DNA of 64,000 bases from Terriglobia bacterium (GCA_020073705.1 JAIQES010000023.1:1-64000); one strand, 5' to 3'. Shown: positions 11,614 to 19,327, counted from the stretch's first letter. Notes: generated by a model not told the origin, from the letters alone. Numbers and translations: made by a program.

Positions 11614-13950
11614 TCAGAAGCCTACTTTTAGGCGAGCGCTGACGCTGCGTGGGATTGAAACTGCGGTGCCGGAAAAAAGGCTAGCGAAATTCAAGACATT
11701 CACTCGGTTGGTGAGATTGTTGGCTTCTAGTTGCAGCAACATTTCCTTCCCTTCTTTATGGAATAGCGTGGCGCCAGCTGCGGCATCGAACGAAAAGTTG
11801 GGGCGCACACGCCCAGCGGCGAAATTCACCCTGTTCAAAATGGCAGCACCGTATTGAGCCAGAGCAGCGTTGTAATCGATGGGTCCATTCAGATTCACAG
11901 GAAAGCCGCTCCCATATTCGGCAGTGGTCGCAAACCACAACTTTTCTAGGGGCTGAAAACGCACGCGGGCTCGGACAGTGTTCCGCTGGTCCTGGGAAAT
12001 GGGGAACTTACTTGTGTCTGAGACATCCGAAGCTTGGGCTCCGAGGAACAGCCCGCCTGTGATGGGTCCCTGGCCGACACCCTTCTGATTGGAGTAGCTC
12101 ACAAATCCCGAGAAGCGACCCCAGCGCGGCACGGCAATCTGGGCTTCCTCTCCGTAAATCTCCGCGCTGGAGAATGCAATCGGGAAGCTAACACCGGTAT
12201 CGAGCAGCGTGTCGTCGTCTGAAAAATTATGAAAATTCCGGCGGAACACGTTGCCGTCAATCCGTAGTTTGCCTGCAAACGACTTCTTGAAACCCAACTC
12301 GTAATAGTTTGCGCGGCCTGGCTGCACCGGAAGCCTCAGAACCAGGCTACTCAACGAATCCAGTTGCGGCGAGCTCGCCAGCAACAAGTTCTCCATAGCG
12401 GGAGTCTGAAAGACGCGGTCGTACGAGGCATGAACCAGCAGATGGAGCGAAGGAATGTAGCGCGAAACGCCGATCCGGGGACTCCAAGCCGATTCGTTGA
12501 CCGCAAATCCGTAATGGTCAAACCGCAAACCGGCGCTCAGGTTCCAGTGCCCCAAGCGAATCTGGTCCTGGACATAGGCGGACGGCTCCATGTCCCATCG
12601 CCGGTCAGAAAACTGGAATTGCAATCGTGTGCCCGGATCAAATTGCGTGGGATCGGTGATTTGATACTGCAACGCTTCGTGCACGGGACTGAAGATTCCG
12701 TCCACGCCGATCTTCCATTCGTGCCTTCCATGATGGCCCGCGAGGTCCGTGCGCACGTACCCTTCGCGGTAGCCACGATCCTGCGAGACGATGACTGGAG
12801 TTGACTGTGGATTCGACGAAAGAAGCGCGCTCGTGTCGCGCACACTCGCCGCCACGCTCAAGAGTATGTCCGTCGAAAAAGCATGCGTGTAATGCACCTG
12901 GCCGCTCGTTTCCTTCTGCGCAGCATCTTGCCGTTGACCTGCCTCTTGCTGAATGAGCTCGTTCGGCACAATATAGCGAACCGCGTGTTGTGATACGGTC
13001 AGGAACAGGCGGTTGCTATTTGAAAGGTCACGCTCGTAGGACGCGGAAAACCCTCCCGCATTTCCCAGATTCGTATAGTTTCCGAGAACCGGCGGGTCCA
13101 AATATCGATCCGTATGAAATCCGTCTCCGCTGACCGAAAATCTATTTCCCCCACTTGCATAAAACAATGCAGCGTGTCCGGAACCTGTCGAGAAGCTGCC
13201 TCCTTCCGCGTCGAATTCCCCATGCAAGCCGGCGGGGTTGTTCTTTGGAGACGCAACCTCTATAACGCCACCTAGCTTTCTGCCGTACTCGGCAGGAAAA
13301 CCCGCGGTCATCACGCGCATGGACTCCACATCACCCGATTCGAACGGGGGCGCAAAAGCCGGCGAGCGATTCTCCGTCAGCGGCAGACCATCCACGACAA
13401 ACTGAACGGCATATTCCGAGCCGCGCGGATGCAAAACTCCGTTGGCCTCATACAGCCACCCGGGCTGCGCATCCACCACGTTCAGCACCCCGCGCCCCGG
13501 CTGAGGCGACAATTGCTCGCTAATCGATTGCGAGCCAACCGTATAGACTGTTCCCGTGCTGGATGGGTCGAACAGAGTTCCCGCCTCAGATACTTCCACC
13601 TGGGTCTCGACGGGCGTCAGTCCCAGCGTCACGAACAGTTGCTGCGGCAGCAGCGACCGAATTTCGACCAATTGTGTCGAACGAACGAACCCTGCGTGTG
13701 TCAAACTGACTCGATACACACCGAACGCCAGACCCTGCGCGATGTACCGGCCGTCGTCTCCCACTTCAAAATTCAGCCGGAACTGATTCCCTTCGCTCAC
13801 CAATTCACCTGCCGCCGCGAGCGCCGCCCCTTGCGGGTCGTGTACCTCTATCCGAAGCTCTCCCCGATCCCATTGCGCGGCAGCCGGAAGAACGAGCAAA
13901 CACATCATCCCCAGAAGCACGATCAGTTGTCGTATGGACCGCATCGTCAT
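11614..13950 (-). CDS. TonB-dependent outer-membrane receptor with N-terminal CnaB-like domain
   Basis: 778 aa. A signal peptide ends at PAAAQ. A carboxypeptidase-regulatory-like fold follows (about 30-110, ELRIEVHDPQGAALAAAGEL), then a plug domain (about 120-240, with VQFVVDGLPL and GFPAEYGRKLGGVIEV) and a long beta-barrel ending in the aromatic C-terminus LKVGF. This architecture is typical of acidobacterial receptors that import large substrates such as oligosaccharides or peptides; the ligand cannot be read from sequence. It is shorter than many of these receptors, which often exceed 1,000 aa. It is possibly linked to the downstream secreted hydrolases. Confidence 0.88.
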   Translation of the reverse strand: MTMRSIRQLIVLLGMMCLLVLPAAAQWDRGELRIEVHDPQGAALAAAGELVSEGNQFRLNFEVGDDGRYIAQGLAFGVYRVSLTHAGFVRSTQLVEIRSLLPQQLFVTLGLTPVETQVEVSEAGTLFDPSSTGTVYTVGSQSISEQLSPQPGRGVLNVVDAQPGWLYEANGVLHPRGSEYAVQFVVDGLPLTENRSPAFAPPFESGDVESMRVMTAGFPAEYGRKLGGVIEVASPKNNPAGLHGEFDAEGGSFSTGSGHAALFYASGGNRFSVSGDGFHTDRYLDPPVLGNYTNLGNAGGFSASYERDLSNSNRLFLTVSQHAVRYIVPNELIQQEAGQRQDAAQKETSGQVHYTHAFSTDILLSVAASVRDTSALLSSNPQSTPVIVSQDRGYREGYVRTDLAGHHGRHEWKIGVDGIFSPVHEALQYQITDPTQFDPGTRLQFQFSDRRWDMEPSAYVQDQIRLGHWNLSAGLRFDHYGFAVNESAWSPRIGVSRYIPSLHLLVHASYDRVFQTPAMENLLLASSPQLDSLSSLVLRLPVQPGRANYYELGFKKSFAGKLRIDGNVFRRNFHNFSDDDTLLDTGVSFPIAFSSAEIYGEEAQIAVPRWGRFSGFVSYSNQKGVGQGPITGGLFLGAQASDVSDTSKFPISQDQRNTVRARVRFQPLEKLWFATTAEYGSGFPVNLNGPIDYNAALAQYGAAILNRVNFAAGRVRPNFSFDAAAGATLFHKEGKEMLLQLEANNLTNRVNVLNFASLFSGTAVSIPRSVSARLKVGF

Positions 13951-14113: not shown

Positions 14114-15346
14114 TCACGAATGAGTCAGAGAGTGGAGGAAAATCGTAAGATAACGTTTTACGTTGCTTGTAATCAAGAAGTGCTCGCGCACATGATCGTG
14201 GCCCTGCTCCCCAAGCTTCTGTGCCAGAGCGGGATTCGATAAGAGGAATCGAATCTGATAGGCCGTTCCTTCGATGGAGTGTACCAGCAATCCCGTATGC
14301 TTGTGGATCACCTGAGCAGGAATGCCTCCCACCGCCGATGCCACAACGGGTTTCTTCTTCCACAATGCTTCCGTAACGGTCAGACCGAATCCCTCGCGAA
14401 GACTTTTCTGCACGATCACAGTAGAGGCGCGCTGCAGGGCATTAATTTCAAGAGCACTCCAGGGCGGCAGGTTAAGGAGATGAATGTCCGGATCGTTCTT
14501 GGCTTCGCGGCGGACCTCTTCCAGGACGATTTCGCCCTCTGGATCGTCGGACGCACTCCCCCCGGCCAACACGAGCTGGCAATCCATATATCGCTTGACG
14601 ATTTGATAGGCGTGCACGACGCCCACCGGGTCCTTCAACCGGTCAAACCGCGAAATTTGTGTGACGATGGGGCGGCTTGCATCAATTCCGTAGCGCACCA
14701 AGACACTGCTTACCCACTCCGGATCCAGGTCAACATTTTTTTCCGAGAGCGGATCAATACACGGATGGAACAGATATTGAGGAATTGGAAGCTGGCGCGC
14801 GAACGCTGGTGAGGAGAAAAGCGCAGCATCGTACCGGTAGACAAAGGGTCGGAGGAAACTCCAGACATCCGCGTTCGGATGAGACAGGTCAATGTGGCAG
14901 CGCCAGATCCAGTGTCCCTCCTGCTTTGAGCGGGCTTCAATCAGGGCTACCGGTTGAGGATCGTTGATCACCGTGAATTCGCAATCAAATTGAAGTCGTT
15001 GGCGGTTCAGTTCATTGGTCGCAAGGAACAAATCGAAGTCTTCTTTTCGAGCTTGGTAGGGGCCGCCATGCAGGGCGTTGTGAAACGCCTTTGTGACTTC
15101 GAAGAAATCCTGGCCGCCAGTGATGACGTCCCAACGCGGCTGGAGCCCCAGCTCCTGGATCAACGGAATCACGCGATTCAGCATTTCCGCCACTCCGCCA
15201 CCCATCGCCGTGGAGTTGACCATCTGGACCGTGCGGCCAGACAACTGCCCGGCGAGCGCGCGCAGTTCGTCGATTTCGGGGGCTCCGAGCAAAGGAACAT
15301 AGTCATCGAGGCGCATCACATGGACTTCCGCTTTTGTGACGTTCAT
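14114..15346 (-). CDS. GT4 glycosyltransferase, trehalose synthase TreT-like
   Basis: 410 aa, last gene of a three-gene operon. The N-terminal half carries VNSTAMGGGVAEML, typical of TreT and kin. The C-terminal GT-B half has VTQISRFDRLKDP and the nucleotide-sugar motif SLREGFGLTVTEALWKKKPVV with the E-x7-E pair. TreT joins NDP-glucose and glucose into trehalose. The start ATG overlaps the stop of the DUF5752 gene (ATGA), so translation is coupled. The combination with OtsA points to trehalose or a related glucoside. Which product this enzyme makes is inference. Confidence 0.85.
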   Translation of the reverse strand: MNVTKAEVHVMRLDDYVPLLGAPEIDELRALAGQLSGRTVQMVNSTAMGGGVAEMLNRVIPLIQELGLQPRWDVITGGQDFFEVTKAFHNALHGGPYQARKEDFDLFLATNELNRQRLQFDCEFTVINDPQPVALIEARSKQEGHWIWRCHIDLSHPNADVWSFLRPFVYRYDAALFSSPAFARQLPIPQYLFHPCIDPLSEKNVDLDPEWVSSVLVRYGIDASRPIVTQISRFDRLKDPVGVVHAYQIVKRYMDCQLVLAGGSASDDPEGEIVLEEVRREAKNDPDIHLLNLPPWSALEINALQRASTVIVQKSLREGFGLTVTEALWKKKPVVASAVGGIPAQVIHKHTGLLVHSIEGTAYQIRFLLSNPALAQKLGEQGHDHVREHFLITSNVKRYLTIFLHSLTHS

Positions 15347-15999
15347 GCCGCAAGCTCCCGATCAACGAATGTGAAAAGCTTTGCTCTCGCGCCTTCCACT
15401 GTATTCGTGTAGACGTCGATGTAATTGGTGCGCTGCGCTAAAGTCGGCAGGCCTAGTTCGTTTTCAAACCACAACGAGAAATCATTCGTGCGCAATCCCA
15501 GGCGCAGCCGTGAAACCAGGAAATGGTAATGAAAGGATTGATTGCTGAGATGCTCTAGCCCGCGACGAAATTCCTCGAGCGTCCAAGCCTCCGAAGTATG
15601 AGGGATCGTCACTTCGACACTCTCGCAAAAATAGAATGGCTCGAACGCCACCCGCCCGACCTCCTCCGAACGAGAGCGGCAATAATCGTCAGTAATGCGA
15701 AGCAAGTCGCTCCGCAGGTCGTTGAGCGTGAGATATCCGCGAATATCGGGTGCCGCCAGCTGTTCGGCGAGCACCGGATAATTCAGTGCCGCGAGAACCC
15801 ATTGCGCGAAATCATTCGAAAAACCCTCCGTGAGAAAGTGATGCCGTCCCAGGCTTTGAAATGTGTGGTAGAAGATCGACCCACCACTGCACTTTTCCAA
15901 GCCATCCCGCAGTTCGCCGAGAGTCGTGGCCGTTTGATTTTCGATCCGCGTCAGATACGAAACCGTGACAAACCGGAATGGATGATCTGCCTTCTTCAA
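15343..15999 (-). CDS. DUF5752 family protein
   Basis: About 218 aa, no signal or membrane segment. Two internally similar halves are visible: LGELRDGLEKCSGGSIFYHTF with later NDFAQWVLAALNYPVLAEQL, and LEEFRRGLEHLSNQSFHYHF with NDFSLWFENELGLPTLAQR, so the fold is a tandem duplication. I place it in DUF5752 from this repeated pattern. The start is probably TTG 15999, because GGCGGAGG lies 7-8 bases upstream; a GTG at 16020 would put that Shine-Dalgarno inside the gene. It is sandwiched between otsA and the treT-like gene and coupled to the latter, so it probably serves that pathway. The biochemical role is unknown. Confidence 0.75.
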   Translation of the reverse strand: MKKADHPFRFVTVSYLTRIENQTATTLGELRDGLEKCSGGSIFYHTFQSLGRHHFLTEGFSNDFAQWVLAALNYPVLAEQLAAPDIRGYLTLNDLRSDLLRITDDYCRSRSEEVGRVAFEPFYFCESVEVTIPHTSEAWTLEEFRRGLEHLSNQSFHYHFLVSRLRLGLRTNDFSLWFENELGLPTLAQRTNYIDVYTNTVEGARAKLFTFVDRELAA

Positions 16000-16097
16000 G
16001 AGAGTTCCTCCGCCAATCACTCCAGAAAGACGCGCACCTCCTCCGGATCTCTAAGCCGGAAGCGAGTGTCTGTCCGCGTAGCAGGGCCTATCAGAGC

Positions 16098-18356
16098 TCA
16101 CCTGGTTTCCACCATTTCCCGAGTGTCAAGCCGGATTTCAGAGAGCTCTGATATCAGTTCTCCGGCCCAGCGATAGACGTTGTGCTCCCGCACGACCCTG
16201 CGCATACGCTGCATGCGTACGCACCTTTCTTCTAGAGGCATTTCCAAAGCCCGGCGGATCGTCTCGGCCATTTGGTCAATGTCGTAAGGATTGACCAACA
16301 GGGCATCATGCAATTCCCGGCTGGCACCGGTGAATTGACTGAGGATCAGGACGCCGTCCTGATCCTTCCGGGCAGCCACAAACTCCTTGGACACGAGATT
16401 CATCCCGTCATGCAGGGAGGTGACGAAACAAAAATTCGCAGCTCTGTAAAACGGTTCGATCTCCTCATGGCTGTGATGCCGGCTGAACAGAACAATCGGT
16501 CTCCATTTTTCGGTCTGAAACCGCCGGCTGATTCGGTCCGCCTCGGCAGCGACTTCGTTGAGCAAGTCTTGATAACGCTTGATATTCAAGCGGCTGGGTG
16601 CACCGAATTGAACAAATGTGAACTGTTCGAGGTACTGAGGATACTTTTCGAAAAAGCGCTCGATAGCGCGGAACCGCTCCACAATTCCCTTGGTATAATC
16701 AACTCGATCCACACCTACGCCGAGGAAGAGAATGTCCGATCCCAGCTTCGCCAGTACGTCAGCTCGGTTCTCTTCGGGAGAAACTTCCATTACCGACTCC
16801 GGGCATTCCGGAAGTCCCACGCTGATCGGGTGCGCACGCACCAAAGTGAAATGATCGTTCCGATTCACCGCAAAGCGGTCCCATTCGATCCGGCACTCTA
16901 ACGATTGCTCCACGGTATCCAAAAAATTGTTGCAGTGCGCCTGAATATGGAAGCTCACCAGGTCTGCCCCCAGCAGTCCATTGAGAAGCTCGCGTTCCCA
17001 AGGGCAAATTCGGAATGCCTCGGGATTGGGCCATGGAATGTGCCAGAAGATGGCGACGCGGGCGTCGGGACGCTTCGCTTTGATGAGCCTAGGCAGCAAA
17101 GCAAAGTGAAAATCCTGAATCAAAACAAAAGGCCGGTCTGCGCCCGCAATCTCTTCCAGAACGGCCGCCGCAAATTTCTCATTGACGCGCTGATAGTGCT
17201 CCCAATCATCGGCACGGAATACAGGCCGCGTATGTGCGATATGACAAAGCGGCCAGAGGCCTTCGTTTGCAAAGCCAAAGTAATAGCCGTTTTCTTCCTC
17301 CTTGGTGAGCCAGATGCGGCGGAGTGTGTAATGGGGGTGATCGGGAGGAACGCGCAGTCGGTCTTGCGCATCTACAGTTTCCCGGTCCGCCTCCGCGGAA
17401 CCGTATGCGATCCATGTGCCATCACATGCGCATAAAATGGGTTCGAGAGCCGTCACCAGACCACTCGCTGGAACCCGAGCCTCGATTCCCTTGCCGCCGT
17501 ACACATGTTGGTACGGCTCACGGTTTGAGACTACAAAGAGGGAACTGCCGCGGAGTCGCCGCTCAATACTGGCGTGCAATCGCTCAGCCGTCCACAGAGA
17601 ATCACCTGCCTCGCGCAACTGCGCCTCTTCTTTGGCGGCCGCTCGCGCCTCAGCGAGTTTTTGCGCCAAACTAGCTGCCTCGGTGGACAACGGTCCGAGG
17701 AAACTTTCCGCTATTCGGAGCGGGAACGGCACAACCTTGCCGTTGCGCAGATCTCTCATCCATTTGGCCACTCTAGTGATCGGCCCGACAATCGTCCACC
17801 GGATCACAAAGGAGGTAATCAATATGATCAAAAGGAGCTGAGCAACCACATGCCACAGAGTCTCGCGCCAGATTCGAGCGCTCTGCGCTTCGATGTAGGA
17901 GGTGTCGTAAAAGGTAAAAAGGACGCCCACAATTTTCGATTCGCGGTGCAATGGCAGCGCATAAATGTACATCGTTGACTGGGCGATTTGTTCGTAGGCA
18001 CCTATGCCTTGATCCTGTTCTTTGATCTGCGTAAATACGCTAGGCGGGTTGTTCGCGTGCGAGCCAAGTTTGGAACTGACAGCAAGAACCTTTCCCTTTT
18101 CATTGTATACTGCAACACCAGCGAGGCGCTCGCGACTCCCGAATCGTTCCACGATTCGCTGGAGTTGGTCCACGGAGCCCCACTGCAAGACAGGCTCCAC
18201 GGTCTCTTGCAGGCTTTCTGCGAGGATCTCCGCGCGTCTTTCGAGGTCTGCGCGCAATCCTCGTTTTTCTGACCGGACCTGGTTCTGGGCAACAATGAAA
18301 GTGACAATGGTAATCGCCACCGCAAGGATTGGAATAAGACGGAGAGTGAGCTTCAT
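16098..18356 (-). CDS. otsA: Trehalose-6-phosphate synthase fused to a membrane sensor and HAMP segment
   Basis: 752 aa. Residues 8-24 and about 168-187 are hydrophobic membrane spans bounding a roughly 140-residue predicted periplasmic sensor (VAVYNEKGKVLAVSS, PLHRESKIVGVLFTFYD). A HAMP-like helix pair (about 188-240, starting VGPITRVAKWM) and a linker follow. A full GT20 domain occupies about 272-740: VSNREP, GLVTAL, WHIPWPNPEAF, VDRVDYTKG (R551, K556 for UDP-glucose phosphates), LHDGMNLVSKE and LSQFTGAS. It makes trehalose-6-phosphate from UDP-glucose and glucose-6-phosphate. Ordinary OtsA is soluble and about 460-480 aa. It is the first gene of the operon, 98 bp before the DUF5752 start. 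No otsB phosphatase is seen in the window. Confidence 0.9.
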   Translation of the reverse strand: MKLTLRLIPILAVAITIVTFIVAQNQVRSEKRGLRADLERRAEILAESLQETVEPVLQWGSVDQLQRIVERFGSRERLAGVAVYNEKGKVLAVSSKLGSHANNPPSVFTQIKEQDQGIGAYEQIAQSTMYIYALPLHRESKIVGVLFTFYDTSYIEAQSARIWRETLWHVVAQLLLIILITSFVIRWTIVGPITRVAKWMRDLRNGKVVPFPLRIAESFLGPLSTEAASLAQKLAEARAAAKEEAQLREAGDSLWTAERLHASIERRLRGSSLFVVSNREPYQHVYGGKGIEARVPASGLVTALEPILCACDGTWIAYGSAEADRETVDAQDRLRVPPDHPHYTLRRIWLTKEEENGYYFGFANEGLWPLCHIAHTRPVFRADDWEHYQRVNEKFAAAVLEEIAGADRPFVLIQDFHFALLPRLIKAKRPDARVAIFWHIPWPNPEAFRICPWERELLNGLLGADLVSFHIQAHCNNFLDTVEQSLECRIEWDRFAVNRNDHFTLVRAHPISVGLPECPESVMEVSPEENRADVLAKLGSDILFLGVGVDRVDYTKGIVERFRAIERFFEKYPQYLEQFTFVQFGAPSRLNIKRYQDLLNEVAAEADRISRRFQTEKWRPIVLFSRHHSHEEIEPFYRAANFCFVTSLHDGMNLVSKEFVAARKDQDGVLILSQFTGASRELHDALLVNPYDIDQMAETIRRALEMPLEERCVRMQRMRRVVREHNVYRWAGELISELSEIRLDTREMVETR

Positions 18357-18700: not shown

Positions 18701-19327
18701 TCACTCTCTCAATCGTTTCGGGCCACTTACAAATGGATTCCCCCGCTCGTAGAAACGGAGAAGGCGGTTCACCTCGCGCGTGATGCCGATTCGTGTGCTC
18801 GTTCCGATGGGACCGGCGCGTCGAATGGATGCACCAAGCCAGAGTCTGCCCCCGGCGCACAACTCCACTCCATCGCACCGTTTATCGATATCCATCGCGT
18901 TCGCGAGACGCCCTGGACCGCGAGCAAGGTCGAGCAGACGGTCTGTTCCGCGACGCCGCTCCATGAAACCGATTCCCTCCAATGGCTCAAGTGCCCGCAA
19001 CAATACTCCAGCGCCCACGCCAGCCTTCTCACTGGAGATATTCATCATGAAACAGGAACCGTATGTAAAAAAAACGTAAGCGTGACCGTGCTGGAGAAAG
19101 AGCGAGCGAATACTGGGAGTCGCACCGCGGAATGCGTGTCCGGCCGCATCACCAACTGGATAGGCCTCCGTCTCGACGATGCGGCCACTTATGCGGCCCT
19201 GTGGCAAATCGTGCACCAGCGTCTTGCCGATCAGGTACCGCGCCAGTGTGACCGTATTCTCGGGCAATTCCGAGCGGCGGAGACGCCGGATGCGAAGGGG
19301 AACCTGCGTCTGGGCTTTGCGCACCAT
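18701..19327 (-). CDS. mpg: 3-methyladenine DNA glycosylase, AAG/Mpg type
   Basis: Removes alkylated purines (3-methyladenine, hypoxanthine) from DNA in base-excision repair. The 208-aa protein has the catalytic glutamate in GRIVETEAY (about 48-56), the base-flipping YVFFTYG region, ALEPLEG, and the conserved LARGPGRLANAM. Length is normal for bacterial AAG. The start ATG 19327 directly abuts a GGAGG, unusually close, so a GTG one codon later or another start may be used. It stands alone. Confidence 0.92.
   Translation of the reverse strand: MVRKAQTQVPLRIRRLRRSELPENTVTLARYLIGKTLVHDLPQGRISGRIVETEAYPVGDAAGHAFRGATPSIRSLFLQHGHAYVFFTYGSCFMMNISSEKAGVGAGVLLRALEPLEGIGFMERRRGTDRLLDLARGPGRLANAMDIDKRCDGVELCAGGRLWLGASIRRAGPIGTSTRIGITREVNRLLRFYERGNPFVSGPKRLRE

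Follow-up and report, generated by a model that had tools for sequence, protein, structure and literature searches.

The closest characterised system to the genes described here is the msc-gt-tpsp operon of Thermoproteus tenax, in which the activity of the trehalose-6-phosphate (T6P) synthase (TPS) depends on a complex with a protein of glycosyltransferase family 4 (GT4) (Zaparty et al. 2013, PMC3634074). The channel of this operon has been suggested to let trehalose out after a down-shift, a role in osmotic stress was proposed, and the operon organisation was called unique to Thermoproteales by its authors (PMC3634074). In Sulfolobus acidocaldarius several trehalose pathways run in parallel, among them TreT and a TPS whose T6P phosphatase (TPP) is encoded by a gene of its own (PMC7688234). 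Allosteric control of OtsA, the classical bacterial T6P synthase, has a precedent according to the title of PMC6879718. The present analysis concerns three genes of a Terriglobia bacterium (GCA_020073705.1) within a 64,000-nucleotide stretch (JAIQES010000023.1:1-64000), referred to below as the window. They encode an OtsA-like T6P synthase of family GT20 with a sensor-like N-terminus, a DUF5752 protein, and TreT. Their coordinates, order, and common minus strand agree with those given by the original prediction, which a model had made from the sequence alone:

16098..18356, minus strand: otsA-like gene, 752 amino acids, membrane-anchored T6P synthase with a predicted N-terminal sensor
16021..16097, minus strand: gap of 77 bases between the otsA-like gene and the DUF5752 gene, the place of otsB in the closest relative (L113)
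15343..16020, minus strand: DUF5752 (OrfY-type) duplicated protein, 225 amino acids, GTG start, PF19027
14114..15346, minus strand: treT, GT4 trehalose glycosyltransferring synthase, 410 amino acids, PF21269

The most likely reading of the sequence, with a probability of about 0.5, is that the three genes together make up a trehalose module, coupled to the membrane and to osmotic conditions, whose T6P synthesis is gated by a sensor. The first protein would be a T6P synthase placed on a chemoreceptor-like input, with two membrane spans flanking a periplasmic single-Cache domain and with a HAMP-like segment and coil leading on to the enzyme. Changes beyond the cytoplasmic membrane, presumably osmotic or envelope cues, would move the HAMP and coil of a dimer and set the activity of the GT20 domains. 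TreT would produce trehalose directly from nucleoside diphosphate glucose and glucose, whereas T6P would be removed by a phosphatase other than those of PF02358 (OtsB). The DUF5752 protein, as a near-obligate partner of TreT, would control it and couple it to the state of the membrane or to osmotic conditions. The main rival is that the N-terminus is a mere anchor.

The 752-amino-acid otsA-like frame has no internal stop, and a strong ribosome site, GGGAGGAAGGG, lies just 5' of codon 1. Its parts are as follows:

18288..18344, minus strand: first transmembrane span, residues 5-23, running on into a long helix (residues 2-59), by hydropathy and model
17910..18263, minus strand: predicted extracytoplasmic single-Cache domain, residues 32-149, by family profile, sCache_3_2 in relatives, and a helix-sheet model
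17802..17858, minus strand: second transmembrane span, residues 167-185, by hydropathy and model
17646..17795, minus strand: divergent HAMP-like segment, residues 188-237, with conserved W199 and G206 and the AS2 coil, by profile matches and alignment
17541..17645, minus strand: signalling-helix-like coil and conserved SLWTAERL segment linking HAMP to GT20, by spacing analysis
16140..17540, minus strand: GT20 catalytic domain, residues 273-739, PF00982

The GT20 domain, which the original prediction had begin at about residue 272, is matched by PF00982 from residue 273 with 386 bits against a cut-off of 32.5. Residues R279, G299, Y359, W368, D415, H439, R551, K556, R589, D650, and E658 are near-invariant in the alignment and correspond to R9, G22, Y76, W85, D130, H154, R262, K267, R300, D361, and E369 of Escherichia coli OtsA, which we take to be the donor and glucose-6-phosphate (G6P) residues of the OtsA structures. 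All of the nucleotide-sugar residues expected of the enzyme are thus present. The cut-off of the NCBI OtsA equivalog TIGR02400 was not reached (417.7 bits versus 564.85), which indicates a diverged branch for which "OtsA-like T6P synthase" is a safe label. Identity as a glucosylglycerol-phosphate synthase was rejected, the score for that model being 309.8 bits, below those for the OtsA models (417.7 and 479.6). Pairwise ratios of nonsynonymous to synonymous substitution (dN/dS), with pairs of otsB-less genomes included and synonymous sites near saturation in some pairs, were 0.05 to 0.09 for GT20 and about 0.1 for the sensor. The intact residues and the low ratios predict that the T6P synthase is active and that both halves of the protein are under selection; an inactive GT20 domain was rejected on the same grounds. 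In one locus (L028:3-4196), GT20, the only domain named by Pfam at an E value of 1e-5, lies at the C-terminus of an open 1,397-amino-acid frame cut off by the start of the contig.

The two N-terminal spans had been foreseen, as had a periplasmic domain between them; both spans lie within the first 265 residues, and the domain was assigned a single-Cache fold. A profile built from the sensor regions of 32 relatives matched the Cache of WalK kinases at residues 32-149 (5is1, E value 5.7e-5; also 4ywz and 7dud), and sCache_3_2 was matched by 11 of the 32 relatives, with a best value of 4.7e-8. The query sensor alone remained below the Pfam cut-offs for Cache. As a class, Cache domains are able to bind small molecules or to sense other cues. 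The AlphaFold model of the full chain, with a mean predicted local distance difference test (pLDDT) score of 84, shows, in order, a long transmembrane helix, a sheet resembling that of Cache domains, another long helix, and a coil that precedes GT20. The proposed HAMP-like helix pair fared less evenly. Adjoining the significant Cache match, the sensor profile matched the AF1503 HAMP structures weakly (residues 187-244, E values of 0.1 to 0.5), and the alignment displays a HAMP-like pattern, GPI..hA.W...LR.G...D.L.PL..EV..LA..L. However, Pfam does not call HAMP in the query, and just 2 of the 59 members matched it at an E value of ≤0.05. In most members AS2 and W255 are separated by 33 or 26 residues, values that differ by one heptad; distances of 25, 31, and 32 were also seen, and seven members fell outside the pattern used for counting. 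The spacing from W255 to the start of GT20 is fixed in 56 of 59 members. By these criteria the N-terminus is probably an sCache-HAMP unit, of which the divergent HAMP part is only moderately supported.

Homologues with this architecture are not confined to the window. A genome scan recovered 68 loci from many phyla, and in a family survey of 89 genomes an otsA homologue was present in 61, with 49 homologues, that of the window's own genome included, aligned from residue 1 or 2 to at least residue 743. In a GT20 tree of 99 rows, the long form was found in Omnitrophota, Elusimicrobiota, Nitrospirota, Verrucomicrobiota, Kiritimatiellota, Myxococcota, Thermodesulfobacteriota (including the Geobacteraceae strains Geomonas paludis and Geobacter sp. 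AOG1), Bdellovibrionota, Pseudomonadota, and Acidobacteriota. Most of the sources are metagenome bins, so that individual phylum labels may be in error. The tree has one starred clade, with 30 soluble forms, and two of its four label changes are contigs cut at an edge (L036 and L044). The predicted order of sensor, membrane spans, HAMP-like segment, and GT20 therefore holds beyond this genome; the membrane form occurs in about ten phyla and is not a one-off. The otsA homologue is split into two adjacent pieces in G056:C137, G062:C431, and L089:5959-8204, perhaps by frameshift or decay.

The DUF5752 protein was correctly described as a tandem repeat, its internal duplication giving a local score of 86 versus a shuffle maximum of 45. 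PF19027 covers model positions 2-207 of 208 with 173 bits. The predicted structure (pLDDT 90.9) has one strong fold match, OrfY of T. tenax (4cso), with a Foldseek E value of 8.7e-16 and TM-scores of 0.81 to 0.84, a VIA Z score of 22.8, and a root mean square deviation of 2.5 over 212 residues; the DUF5752 profile matches the 4cso sequence with an E value of 8.7e-44. All other VIA matches had Z scores of 3.6 or below, so no further fold relation is claimed. Judged by sequence and predicted model, DUF5752 is the OrfY family, with the full-length duplicated 4cso fold. The second transferase, originally called TreT-like, proved to be a genuine TreT, matching PF21269 (171 bits), PF00534 (75 bits), and, over its full length, 6zj4 (416 bits) and 2x6q (345 bits); the Thermococcales equivalog NF041139 was not reached (377.8 of 775 bits).

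The anticipated coupling of these two genes is borne out in the window by an overlap of 4 bases and in relatives by co-occurrence. Among 87 loci with enough downstream sequence, counted without regard to relatedness, both genes are present at 50, TreT alone at one, and DUF5752 alone at none (50 of the 51 loci with either gene). The pair also travels together in the 89 family genomes, sometimes on a contig separate from otsA (L142 and L144). The co-occurrence indicates that DUF5752 is functionally paired with TreT. In some relatives an MscS-type channel, recognised by its MscS beta domain, is fused N-terminally to DUF5752 within the trehalose operon. These fusions, in which DUF5752 is the C-terminal half, come from Nitrospirota, Deltaproteobacteria, and Chloroflexota:

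MscS-DUF5752 fusions: L027:44-1174, L029:9069-10445, L036:2590-3996, L050:9013-10425, L058:6213-7595

In addition, complete mscS genes lie beside otsA or the operon at L030, L037, L049, L056, L057, L060, L068, and L074. Of the independent clues, the fusion and adjacency of MscS in these relatives point most strongly to a module concerned with the osmotic or membrane state. The earlier proposal that the periplasmic domain senses an osmotic or chemical cue is to this extent supported in its osmotic theme, which comes from the channels of relatives and not from the sensor itself.

Several observations weigh against sensor gating. The HAMP segment is divergent, and model confidence is low at residues 190-250, where it lies. 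The Cache match is at the level of the fold family and not of a ligand-binding subclass. The window locus has no mscS, which occurs at a minority of loci, and the MscS genes of its own genome lie elsewhere. About one-third of the sampled homologues are soluble and lack the sensor, which indicates that the enzyme can do without it. In the alternative, the N-terminus would serve only to keep the T6P synthase at the membrane, close to a channel or to the uptake of sugar, with the former sensor no longer controlling activity; the degenerate HAMP, the working soluble relatives, and the faster evolution of the sensor than of GT20 are all what an anchor would lead one to expect. On the other hand, the sensor is under clear purifying selection, the lengths of the coil change mainly in steps of one heptad while the distance from W255 to GT20 is held constant, and a folded Cache domain is not needed for anchoring. 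The anchor is thus a possible but rather doubtful account.

Two further alternatives turn on the fate of T6P. The usual operon order elsewhere is otsA-otsB-DUF5752-treT, and in the closest relative (L113, OtsA 79% identical) otsB sits between otsA and DUF5752, so the window lineage has most likely lost it. The lack of a nearby otsB had been pointed out, and it extends to the whole genome: a PF02358 search of the window's genome (G000, 97% complete) found none, and neither did searches of most genus g2 genomes that retain otsA. The g2 group appears to have lost otsB separately. GH37 trehalase was not found in the window's genome, and no TreS or TreY scored over the cut-off. Without a PF02358 otsB, T6P must either be handled by a phosphatase that PF02358 does not cover or serve some other purpose. 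GH37 trehalase homologues were observed next to the otsA operon at L117:10164-11948 and L120:2682-4460 (divergent, phmmer only) and after treT at L022:10558-12684 (Pfam).

An ordinary double pathway, in which OtsA acts with an unrecognised HAD phosphatase and TreT works in parallel, both being induced by stress, would account for this pattern of genes. The parallel routes of S. acidocaldarius, with its separate TPP, the otsB genes in the operons of many relatives, and the conserved G6P-site residues are consistent with it. Such a pathway is compatible with sensor gating and not exclusive of it, but it leaves unexplained both the sensor fusion and the tight DUF5752-TreT pair with its MscS fusions, and as the whole explanation it is somewhat unlikely.

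T6P could instead be a signal or end product in the lineages without otsB, which the sensor protein would produce when needed and DUF5752 or TreT would read. Yeast and plants are known to use T6P as a signal. The missing PF02358 in G000 and most g2 genomes with otsA, together with the strong selection on GT20 there, would fit such a role. So would two (G025 and G036) of the four genomes (G025, G036, G078, and G079; loci L118, L119, L128, and L129) that keep the membrane OtsA without OtsB, DUF5752, or TreT. However, no bacterial precedent was found here, T6P build-up is often toxic, and a non-orthologous phosphatase is the simpler answer. Neither a T6P signal nor another glucoside, both entertained in the original prediction, is needed, as the G6P-site residues are kept, many relatives have an otsB gene within the operon, and a phosphatase other than OtsB could do the work; a signalling role is quite unlikely.

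A similarly small chance is given to DUF5752/OrfY being a transcription factor that regulates the operon, as suggested by the name given to 4cso by its depositors ("OrfY protein, transcription factor"). No known DNA-binding fold backs this name, because the sole strong fold match of DUF5752 is 4cso itself, and the attachment of DUF5752 to an MscS-like membrane protein at no fewer than five loci and its specific tracking of TreT speak against it. Finally, the suspicion that a frameshift or misassembly had joined a separate sensor gene to otsA is refuted, because the same N-terminus is found in full-length homologues from the 49 family genomes and many other phyla, Geomonas paludis and Geobacter sp. 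AOG1 among them, and a single ribosome site stands at the sensor start.

If sensor gating of T6P synthesis is true, metabolic glycosyltransferases would join the outputs driven by Cache-HAMP modules, and an external cue would reach a compatible solute by a direct route that needs no kinase. With the MscS-DUF5752 fusion, an orphan family of known structure (4cso) but without an established role becomes open to functional study, and the fusion suggests that membrane tension is joined to trehalose synthesis; cells may thus tie osmolyte production directly to the membrane state. The most far-reaching version, a kinase-free osmolyte circuit across about ten phyla in which Cache-HAMP gates a glycosyltransferase, MscS controls TreT via DUF5752, and T6P signals where OtsB was lost, is unlikely.

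Two neighbouring genes were also observed. A 778-amino-acid protein at window positions 11614-13950 resembles an outer-membrane receptor by eye and has no Pfam match at an E value of 1e-5. Upstream of otsA, a methylpurine-DNA glycosylase gene occupies positions 18701-19327, and nothing points to its membership in the operon.

GT20, Cache-HAMP, TreT, and OrfY are all known parts. No description of HAMP-GT20 (sensor-GT20) or MscS-DUF5752 fusions was found in the open-licence papers searched, nor any of DUF5752 or of OrfY with T. tenax, which is a weak negative. Classical OtsA of E. coli and mycobacteria shares with the window protein the GT20 fold and all donor and G6P residues. However, it is soluble, has about 470 to 490 amino acids, lies beside otsB in E. 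coli, and has no Cache, transmembrane, or HAMP part. The predicted input, a Cache domain between two spans followed by HAMP and a coil, resembles that of sCache-HAMP sensors such as WalK-type kinases, chemoreceptors, and diguanylate cyclases, whereas the output is a metabolic glycosyltransferase and not a kinase, cyclase, or methyl-accepting domain. The TreT enzymes of known structure (6zj4 and 2x6q) are alike over the full length of the treT product, but the window treT is translationally coupled to DUF5752 and adjoins a membrane OtsA.

The T. tenax operon and the bacterial loci have in common a GT20 T6P synthase and a GT4 glycosyltransferase, and T. tenax and some of the relatives also have a mechanosensitive channel. 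T. tenax additionally possesses OrfY, with the DUF5752 fold, and TreT. The T. tenax TPS is fused to TPP, with no sensor or HAMP described, whereas the window protein has a predicted sensor and no TPP domain. The glycosyltransferase of the T. tenax operon was described as closest to PimA and not to TreT, whereas the GT4 protein of the window is TreT. The T. tenax channel is a separate protein of 197 amino acids, whereas bacterial relatives can fuse MscS to DUF5752; the window operon, unlike that of T. tenax, has neither MscS nor TPP. The bacterial loci nevertheless group similar genes together in other phyla; their GT4 protein is TreT, OrfY/DUF5752 is part of the group, and fusions occur that are not described for T. 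tenax.

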